From an uncultured Candidatus Altimarinota bacterium (GTDB lineage: Bacteria; Patescibacteriota; Gracilibacteria; UBA4473), in assembly GCA_938021445.1 (NCBI GenBank), contig CALIGR010000030.1, forward strand, positions 1-14,307: a stretch of 14,307 bases of DNA, given 5' to 3'. Below, in pieces: positions 1 through 8,467 of the stretch; within the stretch, counting starts at the first letter, position 1; each line of letters opens with the position of its first letter. The position numbers and the translations under genes were made by a program. Under the pieces are notes generated by a model that saw only the letters and a list, made by a program, of their open reading frames with translations, made no database searches and had not been told where the DNA came from.

Positions 1-405
1 ATCAAGTTGATCTCGCTCCCAGAGTCTCATGGCAACTAAGACTTGGTCGTTTCTAGATCGGCCAGTGTGGATTTTTTTGCCCGTTTCGCCCAGTGAATCA
101 ATTAAGAAGTTTTCAATAGCGGTGTGCCCGTCTTCATCGGATCTTGTGATTTCAAACTCTTTTTTCTTATGTAGTGTGAGAATCTGATTGAGTATTTTTT
201 TGAGATCTTCTAGTTCTTTTTTATCAAGTATATTAATTTGATGAAGTCCTTCAGCGTGAGCGATAGATGCCTGCACGTCATAAGGGATAAGGGCTTGGTC
301 CAAAATGTAATCTTCACCGACGGTGAATTTTTCTACTAGTTTGTAGAGACCCGCCGTTGGCGTGTCTTTTGCTAAATCGGTTGTGGTTTTTTGCCAGATT
401 TTCAT
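1..405 (-). CDS. argH: Argininosuccinate lyase, N-terminal part (runs off left edge)
   Basis: Final step of arginine synthesis: cleaves argininosuccinate to arginine and fumarate in the cytoplasm. Reading the minus strand from ATG at 405 gives 135 in-frame codons to the window edge without a stop. The translation carries the family N-terminal signatures: DVQASIAHAEGL near residues 43-54, EDGHTAIENFL near 91-101, and the substrate-binding TGRSRNDQV near 114-122. The rest of the enzyme (usually about 450 residues) lies outside the window. It reads away from the membrane-protein gene that begins 33 bases upstream on the other strand, so it is not part of the argF-argG transcript. Its promoter would have to lie inside that neighbouring gene; I could not identify it with confidence, and no Shine-Dalgarno site precedes the ATG. 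The identification is firm. Confidence 0.96.
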   Translation of the reverse strand, partial: MKIWQKTTTDLAKDTPTAGLYKLVEKFTVGEDYILDQALIPYDVQASIAHAEGLHQINILDKKELEDLKKILNQILTLHKKKEFEITRSDEDGHTAIENFLIDSLGETGKKIHTGRSRNDQVLVAMRLWERDQLD

Positions 406-1134: not shown

Positions 1135-1166
1135 AGGGACGGATCGTATCCGTCCCTTACTTTTTT
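1135..1166 (+). terminator. Intrinsic terminator between convergent genes
   Basis: A perfect 10-base-pair inverted repeat, AGGGACGGAT / ATCCGTCCCT, with a 3-base loop (CGT) fills 1135-1157. TAC and then six T (1161-1166) follow on the plus strand. It starts directly after the stop of the plus-strand membrane gene. The stem touches the stop codon of the minus-strand lysE-family gene, so it could also end the arginine operon transcript, although the minus-strand tail (TCTACTTT) is a poorer U-tract. Confidence 0.85.
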
Positions 1167-1783
1167 AGACTTATCAGGTTTTTGGAGCCAAAGAAGATTA
1201 AGACAATTCCGATAGTCTGCTCAAGTGTTTTTAGATGTTTTTTGAGAAAGTTTTGAATGCGTTTCATCGTGAAGATATTGGCGATGAGCCCAAGCCAGAG
1301 CATTGTATTTAGAGGTAGGAGAAAACAGATCAGTAATTTTATTCCTAGACTGGTTTCCGGGGGAAGCAAGATGGCAAAGACACTGACAAAGGCAAGAAGT
1401 GGTTCGATGTTGAGAACGTTTGCAATGGCTCCCATTTTGAATGCCTCAGTTTTAGAAATATTCCCAGATTTTTTGCTTTCCTCAACCGTCAGATTTTTTG
1501 CATTTTTTACAAAGTGATGCCCCAAGTAAATTAGATATACGGCGCCCAAGGTTTTAATGAGAGCGAGCGCGTCTGGATACTGACTGATTAAAATGCTCAA
1601 TCCCGCCATGGCGAGCAGGCAGTGACAGAAAGTTACAAACCCAATTCCGAGGACGGTGTAGTATCCAATTTTTTTTGAGTACTTAAGCGCATTCCGTGTA
1701 ACGATCGCAAAGTCTTGCCCAGGGGTTAAAATAGAAAGAAAATCAATAAGGGCGATGGTGAGGATGAGCGTGAAAGTGGTCAT
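1157..1783 (-). CDS. LysE/RhtB-family amino-acid exporter
   Basis: A 208-residue inner-membrane transporter of the LysE/RhtB family, whose known members export lysine, arginine, homoserine, threonine or related compounds. The family signature TPGQDFAIVTRNA lies at residues 20-32, and about six hydrophobic segments follow over the usual family length. It is the last gene of the arginine operon, with only 5 bases between the argG stop and its ATG, so it is almost certainly co-transcribed with argF and argG and under the same leader. No Shine-Dalgarno site is visible. The family cannot be narrowed to a substrate from sequence alone. Context points to arginine or a pathway intermediate, but induction during arginine shortage would be paradoxical for an arginine exporter. 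Family call firm; substrate unknown. Confidence 0.9.
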   Translation of the reverse strand: MTTFTLILTIALIDFLSILTPGQDFAIVTRNALKYSKKIGYYTVLGIGFVTFCHCLLAMAGLSILISQYPDALALIKTLGAVYLIYLGHHFVKNAKNLTVEESKKSGNISKTEAFKMGAIANVLNIEPLLAFVSVFAILLPPETSLGIKLLICFLLPLNTMLWLGLIANIFTMKRIQNFLKKHLKTLEQTIGIVLIFFGSKNLISLKK

Positions 1784-1788
1784 GGTGT

Positions 1789-3063
1789 TTAGTTTTTATT
1801 AAGTTCAGATTCCCAATCGTACATTCCGAAGGCTGTTTTTTGAGGGAGGTTCCAGAGCTCGATGAATCCAGCGGAGGCGTTTTGGTTAAAGTCAGCGGAT
1901 TTGTTAAACGTGGCTAAGTTTTCATCAAAAAGTGAGTGAGGTGAAGTGCAAGAAAGGACCTGCGCCTGTCCTTTGTATAATTTTATTTTCACACTTCCGG
2001 TGACTTTTTTATTCATACTGTTTTGGAAAGCGTGAATGTGATACATCACTGGGTCATACCATTTAGCTGCGTAAGTAAGGTAAGCCCACTTGGTATCCAT
2101 CAAGACTTTGAGCTCGTTTTCTTCTCTGGTTGAGACGAGTTTCTCAAGTTTTTTATGCGCTTCTATGAGTATGGTGGCGCCTGGGTTTTCATAAACCCCT
2201 CTGACCTTGAGTCCTACAAATCTATCCTCGACAAGCGTGAAGACTCCGACGCCGTGCACCGATCCTATTTGGTTGCATTGAGCGATAAGATTCATGAGCT
2301 TGTCTTTCTTTCCGTTGATGGAAACTGGGACGCCTTTGTGAAATTCAATTTCTAAAATTTCAGATTTATCAGGCGCTTTTTCTGGCATATTTGCCCACTG
2401 AAGAATGTCTTCATATTTGGGGCTCATTTCTGGGTTTTCTATCTCTCCACCTTCCCCCGTATTGCCCCACATGTTTTCATCATAAGAGTACGGTTTTGCG
2501 GAGGTCTGTTTTACGGGGATGCCGTTTTTCTTACAAAACTCAATCTGCTCGTCTCTTCCCATAGACCATTCTCTGACGGGAGCGATGGTTTTAATTTTTG
2601 GATTAAGGGTCGTGATATAGCCTTCAAATCTGACTTGGTCATTTCCTTTTCCAGTACAGCCATGAGCGACGACTTCACAGTTGTATTTCTCAGCCATTTT
2701 TACCGCGACTTTTGAGATCATGACTCTTCCAAGCGGAGTGGAGAGAGCGTATCCACCTTGGTAGTCAGCGTTGGATTTGATAGCTTCACTGAGGAATATG
2801 TCAGCGAATTCTTCTTTAGCGTCATAGACGATCGCCTCTTTGGCGCCGAGATTGAGAGCTTTTTGCTTTATCTCTGACAGGTTGTCAGCGGTCTGTCCAA
2901 GATCAATAGTCAGCGCGATGACTTCGCACTTATACTCGTCTTGGATCCACTTGAGCATTGTTGAGGTGTCCAGTCCTCCAGAGTAGAGGAGGAGGCAAGT
3001 TTTGAACGAGCCTTTGGCGGCTTCGTGACTAGCGGTTTTGGTGTAGGTTGATTGTGATTGCAT
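1789..3063 (-). CDS. argG: Argininosuccinate synthase
   Basis: Joins citrulline and aspartate with ATP to give argininosuccinate, the penultimate step of arginine synthesis, in the cytoplasm. At 424 residues it fits the family range. The N-type ATP pyrophosphatase loop YSGGLDTS is at residues 27-34. The conserved HGCTGKGNDQVRFE is at 134-147. SYDENMWG (193-200) matches the family SxDENLWG motif. The first 20 residues before the core strand look like a short polar extension, and no alternative start lies closer to it. It sits third in the operon, 46 bases after argF and 5 bases before the LysE-family gene. The 46-base gap is AT-rich and shows no convincing separate promoter or ribosome-binding site. 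Confidence 0.97.
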   Translation of the reverse strand: MQSQSTYTKTASHEAAKGSFKTCLLLYSGGLDTSTMLKWIQDEYKCEVIALTIDLGQTADNLSEIKQKALNLGAKEAIVYDAKEEFADIFLSEAIKSNADYQGGYALSTPLGRVMISKVAVKMAEKYNCEVVAHGCTGKGNDQVRFEGYITTLNPKIKTIAPVREWSMGRDEQIEFCKKNGIPVKQTSAKPYSYDENMWGNTGEGGEIENPEMSPKYEDILQWANMPEKAPDKSEILEIEFHKGVPVSINGKKDKLMNLIAQCNQIGSVHGVGVFTLVEDRFVGLKVRGVYENPGATILIEAHKKLEKLVSTREENELKVLMDTKWAYLTYAAKWYDPVMYHIHAFQNSMNKKVTGSVKIKLYKGQAQVLSCTSPHSLFDENLATFNKSADFNQNASAGFIELWNLPQKTAFGMYDWESELNKN

Positions 3064-3109: not shown

Positions 3110-4054
3110 TTACTCGGGTTTTAAAAAGTGATGGAAAACGCCAAGGCTCGAAACCATTCGATTTTTGGCTTGTTGGTAGACGAGTGAGGTTGGCGAATCA
3201 ATAACTTCGTCGGTCACTTCGATCCCTCGGTGTGCCGGGAGACAGTGCATAAAGTAGGTTGTTTTTCCAGTAAGATCGATAAGCGTTTTATTGACCTGGT
3301 AGGGAGTGAATGTTTTAATTTTTTCATCGTATTCAGCTTCTTCTCCCATGGAGACAAAAGTATCTGAATAGATCACATCACTCCCAGGCAGGATATCTTT
3401 AGGATCAATGTGATGCTTAAAATTCGTATTAGATTCTTGGGCTAATTTTTCAAAATACTGAAGCTGCGCTCCTGACCAATAGTAATTTTTTGGTCCGGTA
3501 AACTGCATTGGATAGCCAAGTTTCAATCCCATCTCGATGAGGGAGTAGGCGACATTGTTACGGTCCCCAACAAAGGTGATAGTTGGCTTTGAGTGTTTTC
3601 CAAAGACCTGCTGAATTGTCAGAAAATCAGCCAAGGCCTGCATGGGATGATGCTGATCACAGAGAGCATTGATAATTGGGACTTCGCTGTGTTGGGCCAG
3701 AGTCTGTAGAGTCTGGTGATCAAAGACACGAGCAAAGACCGCGTCACACCATTGGTTTACATTTTTCATGGTGTCTTTTAGGTCTTCTCTTTTTCCTGAA
3801 GGATCATGCCCAGCGGCGTGAAGTATTTTGCCGCCAAAGAAACTAGGAGCTTCAACGTGTATGACGCTTCCGCCGAGTTTGTTGATGGCGACTTCGGTCC
3901 CAACTTTGGTCCGCAGTGATGGTTTCTCAAAAGCAAAAAGAATGTTTTTACCCTTAAGGGGGTCGCTTACGTTTTTGGCATAAAGTGCCTGACTTTGGTC
4001 TAGGATTTGCTGAAGTTCGTTGGCATCGAAATCGGTAATAGTAAGAAAGTGCAT
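3110..4054 (-). CDS. argF: Ornithine carbamoyltransferase
   Basis: Transfers the carbamoyl group from carbamoyl phosphate to ornithine, giving citrulline. It is 314 residues, the normal length. The carbamoyl-phosphate loop is SLRTK at residues 46-50 (usual form STRTR). HHPMQA at 135-140 corresponds to the HPxQ motif, and HCLPAHRG is at 270-277. The ornithine-side loop DTFVSMG (231-237) is the classical SMG form, which argues for ornithine rather than N-acetyl- or N-succinyl-ornithine as substrate. It follows the GNAT-like gene by 37 bases and precedes argG by 46, all in one direction. No Shine-Dalgarno site is visible before the ATG. Under the arginine leader it should be expressed when charged tRNA-Arg is scarce. 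Confidence 0.95.
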   Translation of the reverse strand: MHFLTITDFDANELQQILDQSQALYAKNVSDPLKGKNILFAFEKPSLRTKVGTEVAINKLGGSVIHVEAPSFFGGKILHAAGHDPSGKREDLKDTMKNVNQWCDAVFARVFDHQTLQTLAQHSEVPIINALCDQHHPMQALADFLTIQQVFGKHSKPTITFVGDRNNVAYSLIEMGLKLGYPMQFTGPKNYYWSGAQLQYFEKLAQESNTNFKHHIDPKDILPGSDVIYSDTFVSMGEEAEYDEKIKTFTPYQVNKTLIDLTGKTTYFMHCLPAHRGIEVTDEVIDSPTSLVYQQAKNRMVSSLGVFHHFLKPE

Positions 4055-4091: not shown

Positions 4092-4526
4092 TTAGGGACT
4101 GCGCCCTAATACCACAAATTGACGGTCGTCTTGGACTCTTGGGAACCACGGTGGAAATGCAGTTATTTGACCATCAGTTACTTTTTGAAATTTTTGAGCG
4201 GTTTCGAAGCTGGATGTAACGGCACACATATTGAGTGTGTCTAAAGTCTTAGATTTATAACTTTCGGCTTCTCTCAGTAGTAACTTCAGGACGCTTTGGT
4301 TTGAGTAGACCGATCCAAGCTCTGACCATTCGGAAGCGAGTGTTGGTTTGACCTGACAGAATCCAGCGACGTTTTGATCTGGGTCCAAAATAACCTGCCA
4401 TCGCTCACAGCTTCTTAAAATATCAATAGCTTCGATCTGGATCATTTTCCCATGGCTCCCGTTTTGGGATATGAGCTCGCTCATGTGTGTAGCAAGTTGA
4501 GGTGTTTCTGGTTTTATAATAGTCAT
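4092..4526 (-). CDS. Degenerate GNAT-like protein, first gene of the arginine operon
   Basis: A 144-residue protein with a faint but recognisable GNAT acetyltransferase layout. RSCERWQVILDPDQNVAGFC (about 38-57) fits strands 2-3, EWSELGSVY (about 66-74) fits strand 4, LKLLLREAESY fits the following helix, and LNMCAVTSSFETAQKFQKV fits strand 5 and the C-terminal helix that ends family members. The position in an arginine operon and the layout recall short ArgA-type N-acetylglutamate synthases. The acetyl-CoA pyrophosphate loop (R/Q-x-x-G-x-G/A) that should follow strand 4 is missing: only SNQS is present there. It may therefore be a non-catalytic relative, a binding protein, or an unrelated fold. 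It starts 17 bases after the U-tract of the arginine attenuator and is the first gene controlled by it. Confidence 0.6.
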   Translation of the reverse strand: MTIIKPETPQLATHMSELISQNGSHGKMIQIEAIDILRSCERWQVILDPDQNVAGFCQVKPTLASEWSELGSVYSNQSVLKLLLREAESYKSKTLDTLNMCAVTSSFETAQKFQKVTDGQITAFPPWFPRVQDDRQFVVLGRSP

Positions 4527-4543
4527 CGTTTGGTTTCAAAATT

Positions 4544-4614
4544 AAAAAAATCTCAGAGATCCCGGTTGAGCTTTTTGAAACACAAAAAAACCACTGGGGA
4601 TCATTATCTCCGAG
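4544..4614 (-). terminator. Attenuator terminator of the arginine operon
   Basis: On the minus strand CTCGGAGAT (4614-4606) pairs with ATCTCTGAG (4560-4552), 9 pairs with one G-U. One A follows, then seven U (4550-4544). The enclosed loop can extend the hairpin: CCC 4599-4597 with GGG 4563-4561, GGTT 4592-4589 with AACC 4567-4564, and TTTTTG 4588-4583 with CAAAAA 4577-4572 around a 5-base loop. It lies 17 bases before the first structural gene and after the Arg-rich leader ORF. Its 5' arm is the same segment the antiterminator needs, so the two folds exclude each other. Confidence 0.85.
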
Positions 4615-4674
4615 CAGCTTTTGGTTTAGACGAAATTAAAATAAAGGCTAAATTACCGCTCGGAAGAGGAGCGG
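4608..4674 (-). promoter_or_regulatory. Arginine attenuator: anti-antiterminator and antiterminator segments
   Basis: Two competing pairings precede the terminator on the minus strand. The first is CCGCTC (4674-4669) with GAGCGG (4661-4656), 7-base loop; it lies over the third and fourth Arg codons and the end of the leader ORF. The second is TTCCGAGCGGT (4665-4655) with GCTGCTCGGAG (4618-4608), 11 continuous pairs of which 3 are G-U; it uses the 3' half of the first hairpin and the 5' arm of the terminator. A ribosome stalled at the Arg codons would cover the first segment and release the second for antitermination. A ribosome that reaches the stop codon would cover the second segment and let the terminator form. 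Confidence 0.82.
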
Positions 4675-4709
4675 CGGCGACGTACGTTTGTCGTTTGCGT
4701 ATTTAGCAT
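4653..4709 (-). CDS. Arg-rich leader peptide of the arginine operon
   Basis: An 18-codon ORF, MLNTQTTNVRRRRSSSER, starting at ATG 4709 and ending in TAA at 4653-4655. Codons 10-13 are four Arg codons in a row (CGT CGC CGC CGC), and codon 18, just before the stop, is a fifth (CGG). It begins about 2-6 bases after the predicted transcription start and lies between the promoter and a terminator that can be displaced by an antiterminator. Its role would be to sense charged tRNA-Arg: slow translation through the Arg run switches the downstream RNA to the antiterminated form and allows transcription of the GNAT-like gene, argF, argG and the LysE-family gene. The peptide itself probably has no other function. 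Sequence facts are certain; the regulatory role is inference from the layout. Confidence 0.88.
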   Translation of the reverse strand: MLNTQTTNVRRRRSSSER

Positions 4710-4719
4710 TTCGATAAGG

Positions 4720-4748
4720 ACTTTATTTTGTTTTTGTGAGCTTGTCAA
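4720..4748 (-). promoter_or_regulatory. Promoter of the arginine operon
   Basis: On the minus strand a perfect -35 box TTGACA (4748-4743) is followed after 17 bases by TAAAGT (4725-4720), which matches the -10 consensus at four of six positions. The leader-peptide ATG begins 10 bases after the -10 box, predicting a 5' untranslated region of only a few bases. Confidence 0.8.
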
Positions 4749-8343: not shown

Positions 8344-8372
8344 AAAAAATCACTCTGAGGTTTTTCAGAGCG
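8344..8372 (-). terminator. Attenuator terminator of the proline operon
   Basis: On the minus strand CGCTCTGA (8372-8365) pairs with TCAGAGTG (8358-8351), 8 pairs including one G-U, around the loop AAAACC. One A and six U (8349-8344) follow directly. It lies 14 bases before the proB ATG and after the Pro-containing leader ORF. The base of its 5' arm (8368-8372) is also part of the antiterminator, so the two folds exclude each other. Confidence 0.9.
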
Positions 8373-8431
8373 AGGTGGTTTAGTTCGTTGTTTTGAATTC
8401 ACAATTTATCCACTCACTCTTGGTGAAGCGG
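8368..8431 (-). promoter_or_regulatory. Proline attenuator: anti-antiterminator and antiterminator segments
   Basis: On the minus strand GAGTGAGTGG (8419-8410), which contains the leader stop codon, pairs with CCACCTCGCTC (8378-8368), ten pairs with one bulged C and one G-U. This antiterminator captures the 5' arm of the terminator. A competing upstream pairing, TTCAC (8427-8423) with GTGAG (8417-8413), extended across an internal loop by CC (8431-8430) with GG (8411-8410), would hide the same segment. A ribosome stalled at the Pro codons (8440-8429) leaves 8419-8410 free for antitermination, while one terminating at 8416-8414 covers it and favours the terminator. Confidence 0.82.
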
Positions 8432-8467
8432 GGGTTGAGGCAAGATAACTGTTTGTTGTAAATTCAT
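8414..8467 (-). CDS. Pro-containing leader peptide of the proline operon
   Basis: A 17-codon ORF, MNLQQTVILPQPPLHQE, from ATG 8467 to TGA at 8414-8416. Pro occupies codons 10, 12 and 13 (CCT, CCC, CCG). Consecutive prolines are also intrinsically slow to translate, which could sharpen sensing. The ATG lies about 3 bases after the predicted transcription start, and the stop codon falls inside the antiterminator segment. The inferred role is to sense charged tRNA-Pro and control read-through of the terminator before proB. The layout copies that of the arginine operon leader in this window: promoter, a start codon almost at the 5' end, a short peptide rich in the end product, competing hairpins, then a terminator. 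Confidence 0.88.
   Translation of the reverse strand: MNLQQTVILPQPPLHQE

Follow-up and report, generated by a model that had tools for sequence, protein, structure and literature searches.

A probable ribosome-mediated attenuator with consecutive arginine codons before an arginine operon of a Patescibacteria genome, and similar leaders in its relatives

The region preceding the arginine genes on the minus strand of the window (here the whole 14,307-nt stretch of DNA that was analysed) very probably acts as a ribosome-mediated transcription attenuator of the trp/his type, sensing arginine through the charging of Arg-tRNA, as judged from its sequence and from folding models. It likely controls a gene with a GNAT-like fold, argF, argG, lysE and argH. 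Defining features of an attenuator are present: clustered codons for the end product, an antiterminator and a terminator that exclude each other, and a terminator ending in a U-tract; in the model, the position of the ribosome, on the control codons or at the stop codon, decides which pairing forms. The trp/his-type reading had been put forward from the letters of the window (the original prediction), and is supported by the recurrence of such leaders in relatives, by pairing that is specific to each locus and by a stall/stop logic beyond that of shuffled sequences.

Layout of the leader region

The genome carrying the window (G000) comprises 1.04 Mb in 192 contigs and is about 75% complete. 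The elements identified in its leader region are given below; the promoter, ORF, hairpins and U-tract of the original prediction match the minus strand base for base.

4748-4743, minus strand: -35 hexamer TTGACA, read from the sequence
4725-4720, minus strand: -10-like hexamer TAAAGT, 17 nt after TTGACA, with the presumed start site downstream
4709-4653, minus strand: leader ORF of 18 codons plus stop, MLNTQTTNVRRRRSSSER, from the sequence; relatives have ORFs in the same position
4671..4682, minus strand: four consecutive Arg codons, CGT CGC CGC CGC, the predicted stall site, from the sequence and the Arg enrichment in relatives
4674-4669/4661-4656, minus strand: 1:2 hairpin CCGCTC/GAGCGG over the Arg codons, from folding against shuffles
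4665-4655, minus strand: antiterminator 5' arm, made up of the last leader codons and the first base of the stop codon, from sequence, folding and model
4618-4608, minus strand: antiterminator 3' arm, overlapping the terminator 5' arm, from sequence, folding and model
4552..4614, minus strand: terminator hairpin, outer stem 4614-4606/4560-4552, from folding against shuffles
4550-4544, minus strand: U-tract of seven T, followed by 17 nt to the ATG at 4526, from the sequence
4590-4584, minus strand: second T7, in the loop of the terminator and preceded by a weak hairpin, from sequence and folding

The three pairings had been predicted to be mutually exclusive, and their overlapping bases bear this out, since the 1:2 hairpin shares 4661-4656 with the antiterminator, which in turn shares 4614-4608 with the terminator. 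The 1:2 hairpin has six Watson-Crick pairs and -8.7 kcal/mol (1 of 200 shuffles as good); the antiterminator 4665-4655/4618-4608 has eleven pairs, three of them G-U, and the stretch that contains it, 4674-4608, folds at -15.6 (6 of 200 as good); and the terminator 4614-4552 reaches -20.5 kcal/mol (1 of 200). The terminator is a long-loop hairpin that a simple terminator scan does not report. Folding of the whole leader gives z = -2.87. The weak hairpin before the T7 at 4590-4584 is at -6.6 no better than shuffles (32 of 200 as good). An extra U-tract in the terminator region, as at 4584-4590 on the minus strand of the window, is also seen at loci L076, L080 and L131, and such tracts may be tandem termination sites in some leaders.

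In the mechanism proposed, the transcript would begin a few nt upstream of the AUG, where a ribosome would load without a Shine-Dalgarno sequence. With plentiful arginine it would run to the stop codon and cover 4665-4655, whereupon 4614-4606 would pair with 4560-4552 and transcription would end at the U-tract. With arginine short, it would stall on the first CGU/CGC codons and 4665-4655, left free, would capture the emerging 4618-4608, letting RNA polymerase read into the operon. In the absence of a ribosome the 1:2 hairpin would hide 4665-4655, making termination the default in the window, as in trp; several relatives are modelled to have read-through as their default without a ribosome.

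Downstream arginine genes

The genes following the leader were predicted to form a GNAT-argF-argG-lysE operon, and are indeed found in that order, though an argH-like gene that was not part of that prediction comes after them.

4092..4526, minus strand: gene at the head of the operon, 144 aa, predicted to have a GNAT-like fold (fold model; no sequence family)
3110..4054, minus strand: argF, ornithine carbamoyltransferase (TIGR00658 over its cut-off)
1789..3063, minus strand: argG, argininosuccinate synthase (profile matches)
1157..1783, minus strand: LysE-family exporter (profile matches)
1..405, minus strand: argH-like N-terminal part, cut by the window end (Lyase_1, PF00206; the name argH from its place and from relatives)

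The assignment of the first gene (4092-4526) to GNAT finds support in its predicted structure, a modest model (mean pLDDT 69) that matches GNAT folds, but not in sequence families, as no match was found in Pfam or NCBIfam. A protein search with it returned only itself, making it an orphan by sequence. N-acetylglutamate synthases are among the fold matches of its model. Proteins about 29% identical to it lie directly before argG in L062 and L063. Two larger genes are also seen directly before argG, one in L075 (4853-5971) and one in the reverse complement of L081 (849-2144); these are 27% identical to each other over about 197 residues, and by eye resemble the arginine deiminase/amidinotransferase group.

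Recurrence of arginine-run leaders in relatives

A search of 353 genomes of the same class, whose TGA-recoded members suggest that it is the Gracilibacteria of GTDB, gave an argG match in 74 (two of them, G036 and G192, very weak) and an argF match at E 1e-25 in 34. Arg-run ORFs were defined as having 8-60 codons, lying within 350 nt upstream of the gene and containing three or more Arg in 5 codons; the count was limited to gaps of 100 nt or longer, and other genes of the same loci served as controls. By this rule they precede 45 of the 76 arg operon starts compared with 10 of the 148 control genes (Fisher 2e-17), and at 4 Arg in 5 codons 14/76 compared with 3/148. The window itself is outside the 76 regions, probably hidden by an antisense ORF at 4452-4706. 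The rule finds no Arg-run ORF in 31 of the 76, and at least one of its 45 matches, L129, is a misread T-box. The original prediction had proposed checking the Arg run in relatives, and there it is kept, though the leaders do not align across loci.

Runs of other residues show nothing comparable in the same arg regions and controls: K gives a modest excess (19/76 versus 17/148), while L (19 versus 33), S (13/76 versus 21/148) and F (11/76 versus 15/148) are followed by all others at no more than 7/76. These counts bear on a very improbable alternative, in which the hairpin is a 5' UTR terminator working without ribosome control and the ORF with its Arg codons is a by-product of GC-rich stems. 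Such stems do give CGC repeats, and the reverse strand of the same regions scores Arg runs in 17/76, but the other frames of CGC repeats would yield Ala and Pro runs, which appear in only 2/76 and 2/76 regions against 45 for Arg. The by-product reading is further opposed by the one distance from the AUG that TTGACA favours (13/45 leaders in one 8-nt bin, at most six in any other) and by a stall/stop logic that exceeds shuffles, both described below. A chance ORF arising from GC-rich stems was rejected on the counts of Arg runs against runs of other residues.

By eye, 41 class leaders were kept. Of the 72 genomes whose argG match is good, 40 contribute to them; these 40 genomes belong to 13 families (counted by hand), three of which are TGA-recoded. 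The remaining genomes of the 72 include six with T-boxes, five with plausible leaders and others left unassigned, some of them at contig ends. Together with L243, from another class, the 41 make up a 42-leader set, which includes close relatives (L084 and L085 have one peptide in common) and leaves out the plausible leaders L073, L081 (GTG start), L083, L096 and L110. One genome, G052, has two different leaders, L084 before argG and L135 before the argF operon.

Peptides such as MDYTKLYLHARRRRYRCAG, MNIWNLVSQLRRRRL, MQNTFLISIRRRRAI and MHLQMNRFRLVSRRRRRH have the Arg run in common and little else, which favours the reading of codons. By eye, several leaders also have an Asn a short way ahead of the run. 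An alternative in which the leader peptide binds arginine or ornithine in the exit tunnel, with Arg as part of a nascent-peptide arrest motif, is very improbable. The fungal arginine attenuator peptide, specified by a short upstream ORF with Arg codons before an arginine-related gene, counts in favour of such arrest. Upstream ORFs with Arg codons precede arginine-related genes in speF too, according to the available part of PMC6386406. Against arrest, the 41 class leaders, 12 to 27 residues long, are by eye alike outside close relatives in little but the Arg run, and arrest at the run by excess arginine would lead in the model to read-through, the wrong sign for a biosynthetic operon.

The leader Arg codons are CGC or CGU in 135 of 181 cases, compared with 715 of 2,099 in ORFs of the same loci (Fisher 2e-26); this bias may reflect a single isoacceptor being sensed, or simply the demands of stem formation.

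Outside the class, 18 genomes with argG, covered for only about 1.5 kb of flank, include one clear Arg leader (L243) and a weak one, L248, whose ORF has 3 Arg in 5 codons. A collection of named, mostly unrelated species provided 80 argG loci, 52 with a usable upstream region; none of these 52 has 4 Arg in 5 codons and nine have 3, one of the nine, L163, being the class member G347. Locus L159, whose record is named Balneolia, encodes an argG product 68% identical to that of the window and has a short upstream ORF with Arg-Arg; it is possibly a mis-binned contig.

RNA pairing and terminators in relatives

For the antiterminator, 44 regions were taken by rule, with the window added by hand and L102 and L106 excluded as having no terminator after the chosen ORF; L095 counts twice among the 44, and the doubtful ORFs of L095 and L129 are included. 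In 22 of the 44 regions, the best duplex between the segment from Arg run to stop and the terminator 5' arm outperforms 95% or more of 200 shuffles, and in 10 it outperforms all 200. When terminator arms were swapped among the 42 leaders the true partner had a median rank of 4 out of 41, and when leader segments were swapped a median rank of 2 out of 41 (chance being about 20 for each); it falls in the top 5% both ways for 13/42, and is no better than swaps in L107, L108, L122 and L104. The antiterminator arm mostly lies at about -28 to +17 around the end of the stop codon (L078, L079 and L122 being exceptions), which is where a ribosome at the stop stands.

The terminators of the 42 leaders were selected as the best hairpins with at least 4 T of 7, a choice that in part guarantees that every leader has one. 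A fair count took hairpins that reach -8 kcal/mol or lower, have five or more T of 7 and lie within 120 nt upstream. It finds them in 30/42 arg regions with a kept leader (here the kept-leader loci without the window and L243, which differ from the 42-leader set) and 12/34 other arg regions, compared with 27/148 control genes and 8/126 shuffled regions. The pairings and U-tract that the original prediction expected in relatives are thus also retained, as a locus-specific antiterminator and as more terminator-like hairpins than in controls.

These hairpins also bear on the improbable alternative that the leader acts on the translation of the first gene or on RNA stability, and not via an intrinsic terminator. 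The outputs of speF, given in the available part of PMC6386406 as Rho, RNase G and access to the ribosome-binding site, speak for it, as do some leaders with weak U-tracts (L104, with 4 T of 8). Against it, the end of the chosen hairpin lies 19-47 nt upstream of the gene in 31 of the 42 leaders, terminator-like hairpins are more frequent than in controls, and SD-like motifs that could be hidden are found before only 1 of the 76 first arg genes.

Ribosome-masking model

In the model, the transcript is folded until the terminator 3' arm emerges, with an assumed ribosome footprint of 27 nt masked, and the output is the probability that the terminator 5' arm has already been captured upstream. Averaged over the 42 leaders, capture is 0.72 when the first Arg codon occupies the A site, 0.33 when the stop codon does, and 0.53 if the ribosome is absent. 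The stall/stop difference exceeds 0.2 in the expected direction in 28/42 and in the opposite direction in none, with no difference above 0.2 in the other 14. The mean difference is 0.385, compared with 0.048 in 25 sets in which the stretch from the first Arg codon to the terminator was shuffled (maximum 0.089); these sets had 5-13/42 above 0.2, and 17 of the 42 leaders beat all of their own 25 shuffles. Several loci run counter to the model: in L067 the arm is captured only when the ribosome is absent, and L071, L079, L107, L108, L122 and L136 show no difference or a small reversed one.

For the window, capture with the ribosome on the first, second or third Arg codon is 0.68, 0.66 and 0.30, and it is 0.00 both at the stop codon and without a ribosome. 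The window, L094, L101 and L131 are modelled as a trp-like subtype, in which the lack of a ribosome means termination, and L124, L243 and L062 as a simple subtype, in which it means read-through.

Promoter and start of translation

The promoter-like site of the window, TTGACA-17-TAAAGT, has 10 of 12 consensus letters, but is weak evidence alone, since a stretch of 601 nt holds two such sites where 1.0 would be expected. In 13 of 45 leaders (12/42 Arg and 1/3 Pro) the leader AUG is preceded at 34-41 nt by an exact TTGACA, which is absent at that distance from the other 32; six other 8-nt bins, covering 26-81 nt before the AUG, hold 3, 6, 2, 3, 0 and 0. With ordinary spacing, the sequences predict that the transcripts of those 13 leaders would start at the AUG or within about 6 nt of it, and that of the window would probably begin a few nt 5' of the leader ATG. 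L243, from another class of the same phylum, reads TTGACA-17-TATACT-7-ATG. SD-like 4-mers precede 1/45 leaders, 1/76 first arg genes and 9/148 controls; being rare at all three alike, they indicate that these loci are SD-poor in general.

Relation to known systems

We know of no leader-peptide attenuator at an arginine biosynthetic operon. The literature search, with subscription journals mostly outside its scope, found none at such an operon or in Patescibacteria, and the available parts of PMC6386406, PMC8632094, PMC1262725, PMC2965389, PMC4833913 and PMC1183508 do not describe this type of attenuator at arginine biosynthetic genes or in Patescibacteria. The original prediction knew of no ribosome-mediated Arg attenuator in bacteria, and this stands for arginine biosynthetic operons in the papers searched, but Arg-codon sensing as such is known in speF (available part of PMC6386406).

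The region is like the attenuators of E. coli trp and Salmonella his (their principle is given in the available part of PMC1183508) in its short ORF rich in end-product codons, its 1:2, 2:3 and 3:4 pairings, its U-tract terminator before the operon and an antiterminator arm lying under a ribosome at the stop codon. It is unlike them in its arginine specificity, SD-poor loci, an AUG predicted near the transcript 5' end and a long-loop terminator, and in that several relatives are modelled to read through without a ribosome. T-box leaders (RF00230) likewise sense tRNA charging at the RNA level before arginine genes, but have no leader peptide, the tRNA binding the RNA directly. Mycobacterial leaderless cysteine-run leader ORFs are also short, precede genes that match the amino acid of their single-codon run and start at or near the transcript 5' end. 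They differ in being devoted to cysteine and in having no conserved terminator hairpins reported in the available part of PMC1262725, an Actinobacteria survey that, in this part, reports arginine operons to lack conserved RNA structures and refers to T-boxes elsewhere.

Salmonella speF, the nearest precedent, already provides a bacterial leader in which Arg codons sense arginine: the consecutive Arg codons of its orf34 leader report low arginine through slowing of the ribosome (available part of PMC6386406). According to the same part of that paper, the gene controlled is an ornithine decarboxylase, with Rho, RNase G and RBS structure as the means, unlike in the window, and the orf34 peptide has a conserved core (DUF2618); by eye, the leader peptide and genes of the window are different.

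If the attenuator reading is true, reduced Patescibacteria genomes would keep amino-acid feedback without the usual repressor, and in near-leaderless leader ORFs the race between ribosome and RNA polymerase would begin almost at the first nucleotide. The control-codon bias would let the selective-charging theory of attenuation be tested on a natural case (available part of PMC1183508).

Other regulators and other amino acids

ArgR (PF01316) is over cut-off in none of 108 sampled class genomes, including that of the window (about 75% complete), compared with 8 of 14 control genomes, and ArgR control was rejected on this ground; a single match in G047 falls below cut-off, with 25.7 versus 27 bits. 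At gathering score, Rfam gives no match in the window or on 12 loci. A T-box (RF00230) at the locus of the window was likewise rejected, with no Rfam match there and none in G000 under stricter filters.

T-box matches at E up to 0.001 are found in 12 of the 108 sampled genomes, none over gathering score. Matches just upstream of argG, with E from 0.004 to 5e-16 and again below gathering score, occur in L123, L125, L126, L127, L128 and L129, of which L123, L125, L126 and L129 had been suspected by eye and L127 and L128 were added from the genus of L129; the T-box specifier of L127 reads CGC by eye. The argG products of these six loci are 30-32% identical to that of the window. Those of L124, L131 and L132 are 32, 29 and 27% identical to it, yet these loci have leader peptides, and a clean split between T-boxes and leaders by argG lineage was therefore rejected.

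A putative second leader, for proline, has been identified in the window:

8414..8467, minus strand: proline leader ORF MNLQQTVILPQPPLHQE, with three Pro codons, before proB-proC-proA (sequence, model)
8344..8373, minus strand: terminator hairpin and U-tract before proB (-12.0 kcal/mol)

The same arrangement is present in G019 and G016 (L152 and L153), of the same family as the genome of the window; the other five of the eight proB loci show no convincing proline leader. Modelled capture for the window is 0.86 with the ribosome on the first Pro and 0.19 with it at the stop; the corresponding values are 0.93 and 0.04 for L152, and for L153 0.18 at the first Pro, 0.67 at the second and 0.11 at the stop. 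We put the chances as evenly balanced that this ArgR-less class of Patescibacteria governs arginine by attenuators that read mainly CGU/CGC with an AUG at or near the 5' end, are replaced by T-boxes at some argG loci and have a proline counterpart in the same genomes, amounting to a repressor-free control of amino acids by the ribosome only in minimal genomes.

For histidine, a His run was found within the flanks of only 1 of 20 hisG loci (hisG is not necessarily first in its operon), so that the generality of attenuation is not demonstrated. Upstream of hisG in L278 (G045) lies a short ORF that contains SHHHA, possibly a His leader.
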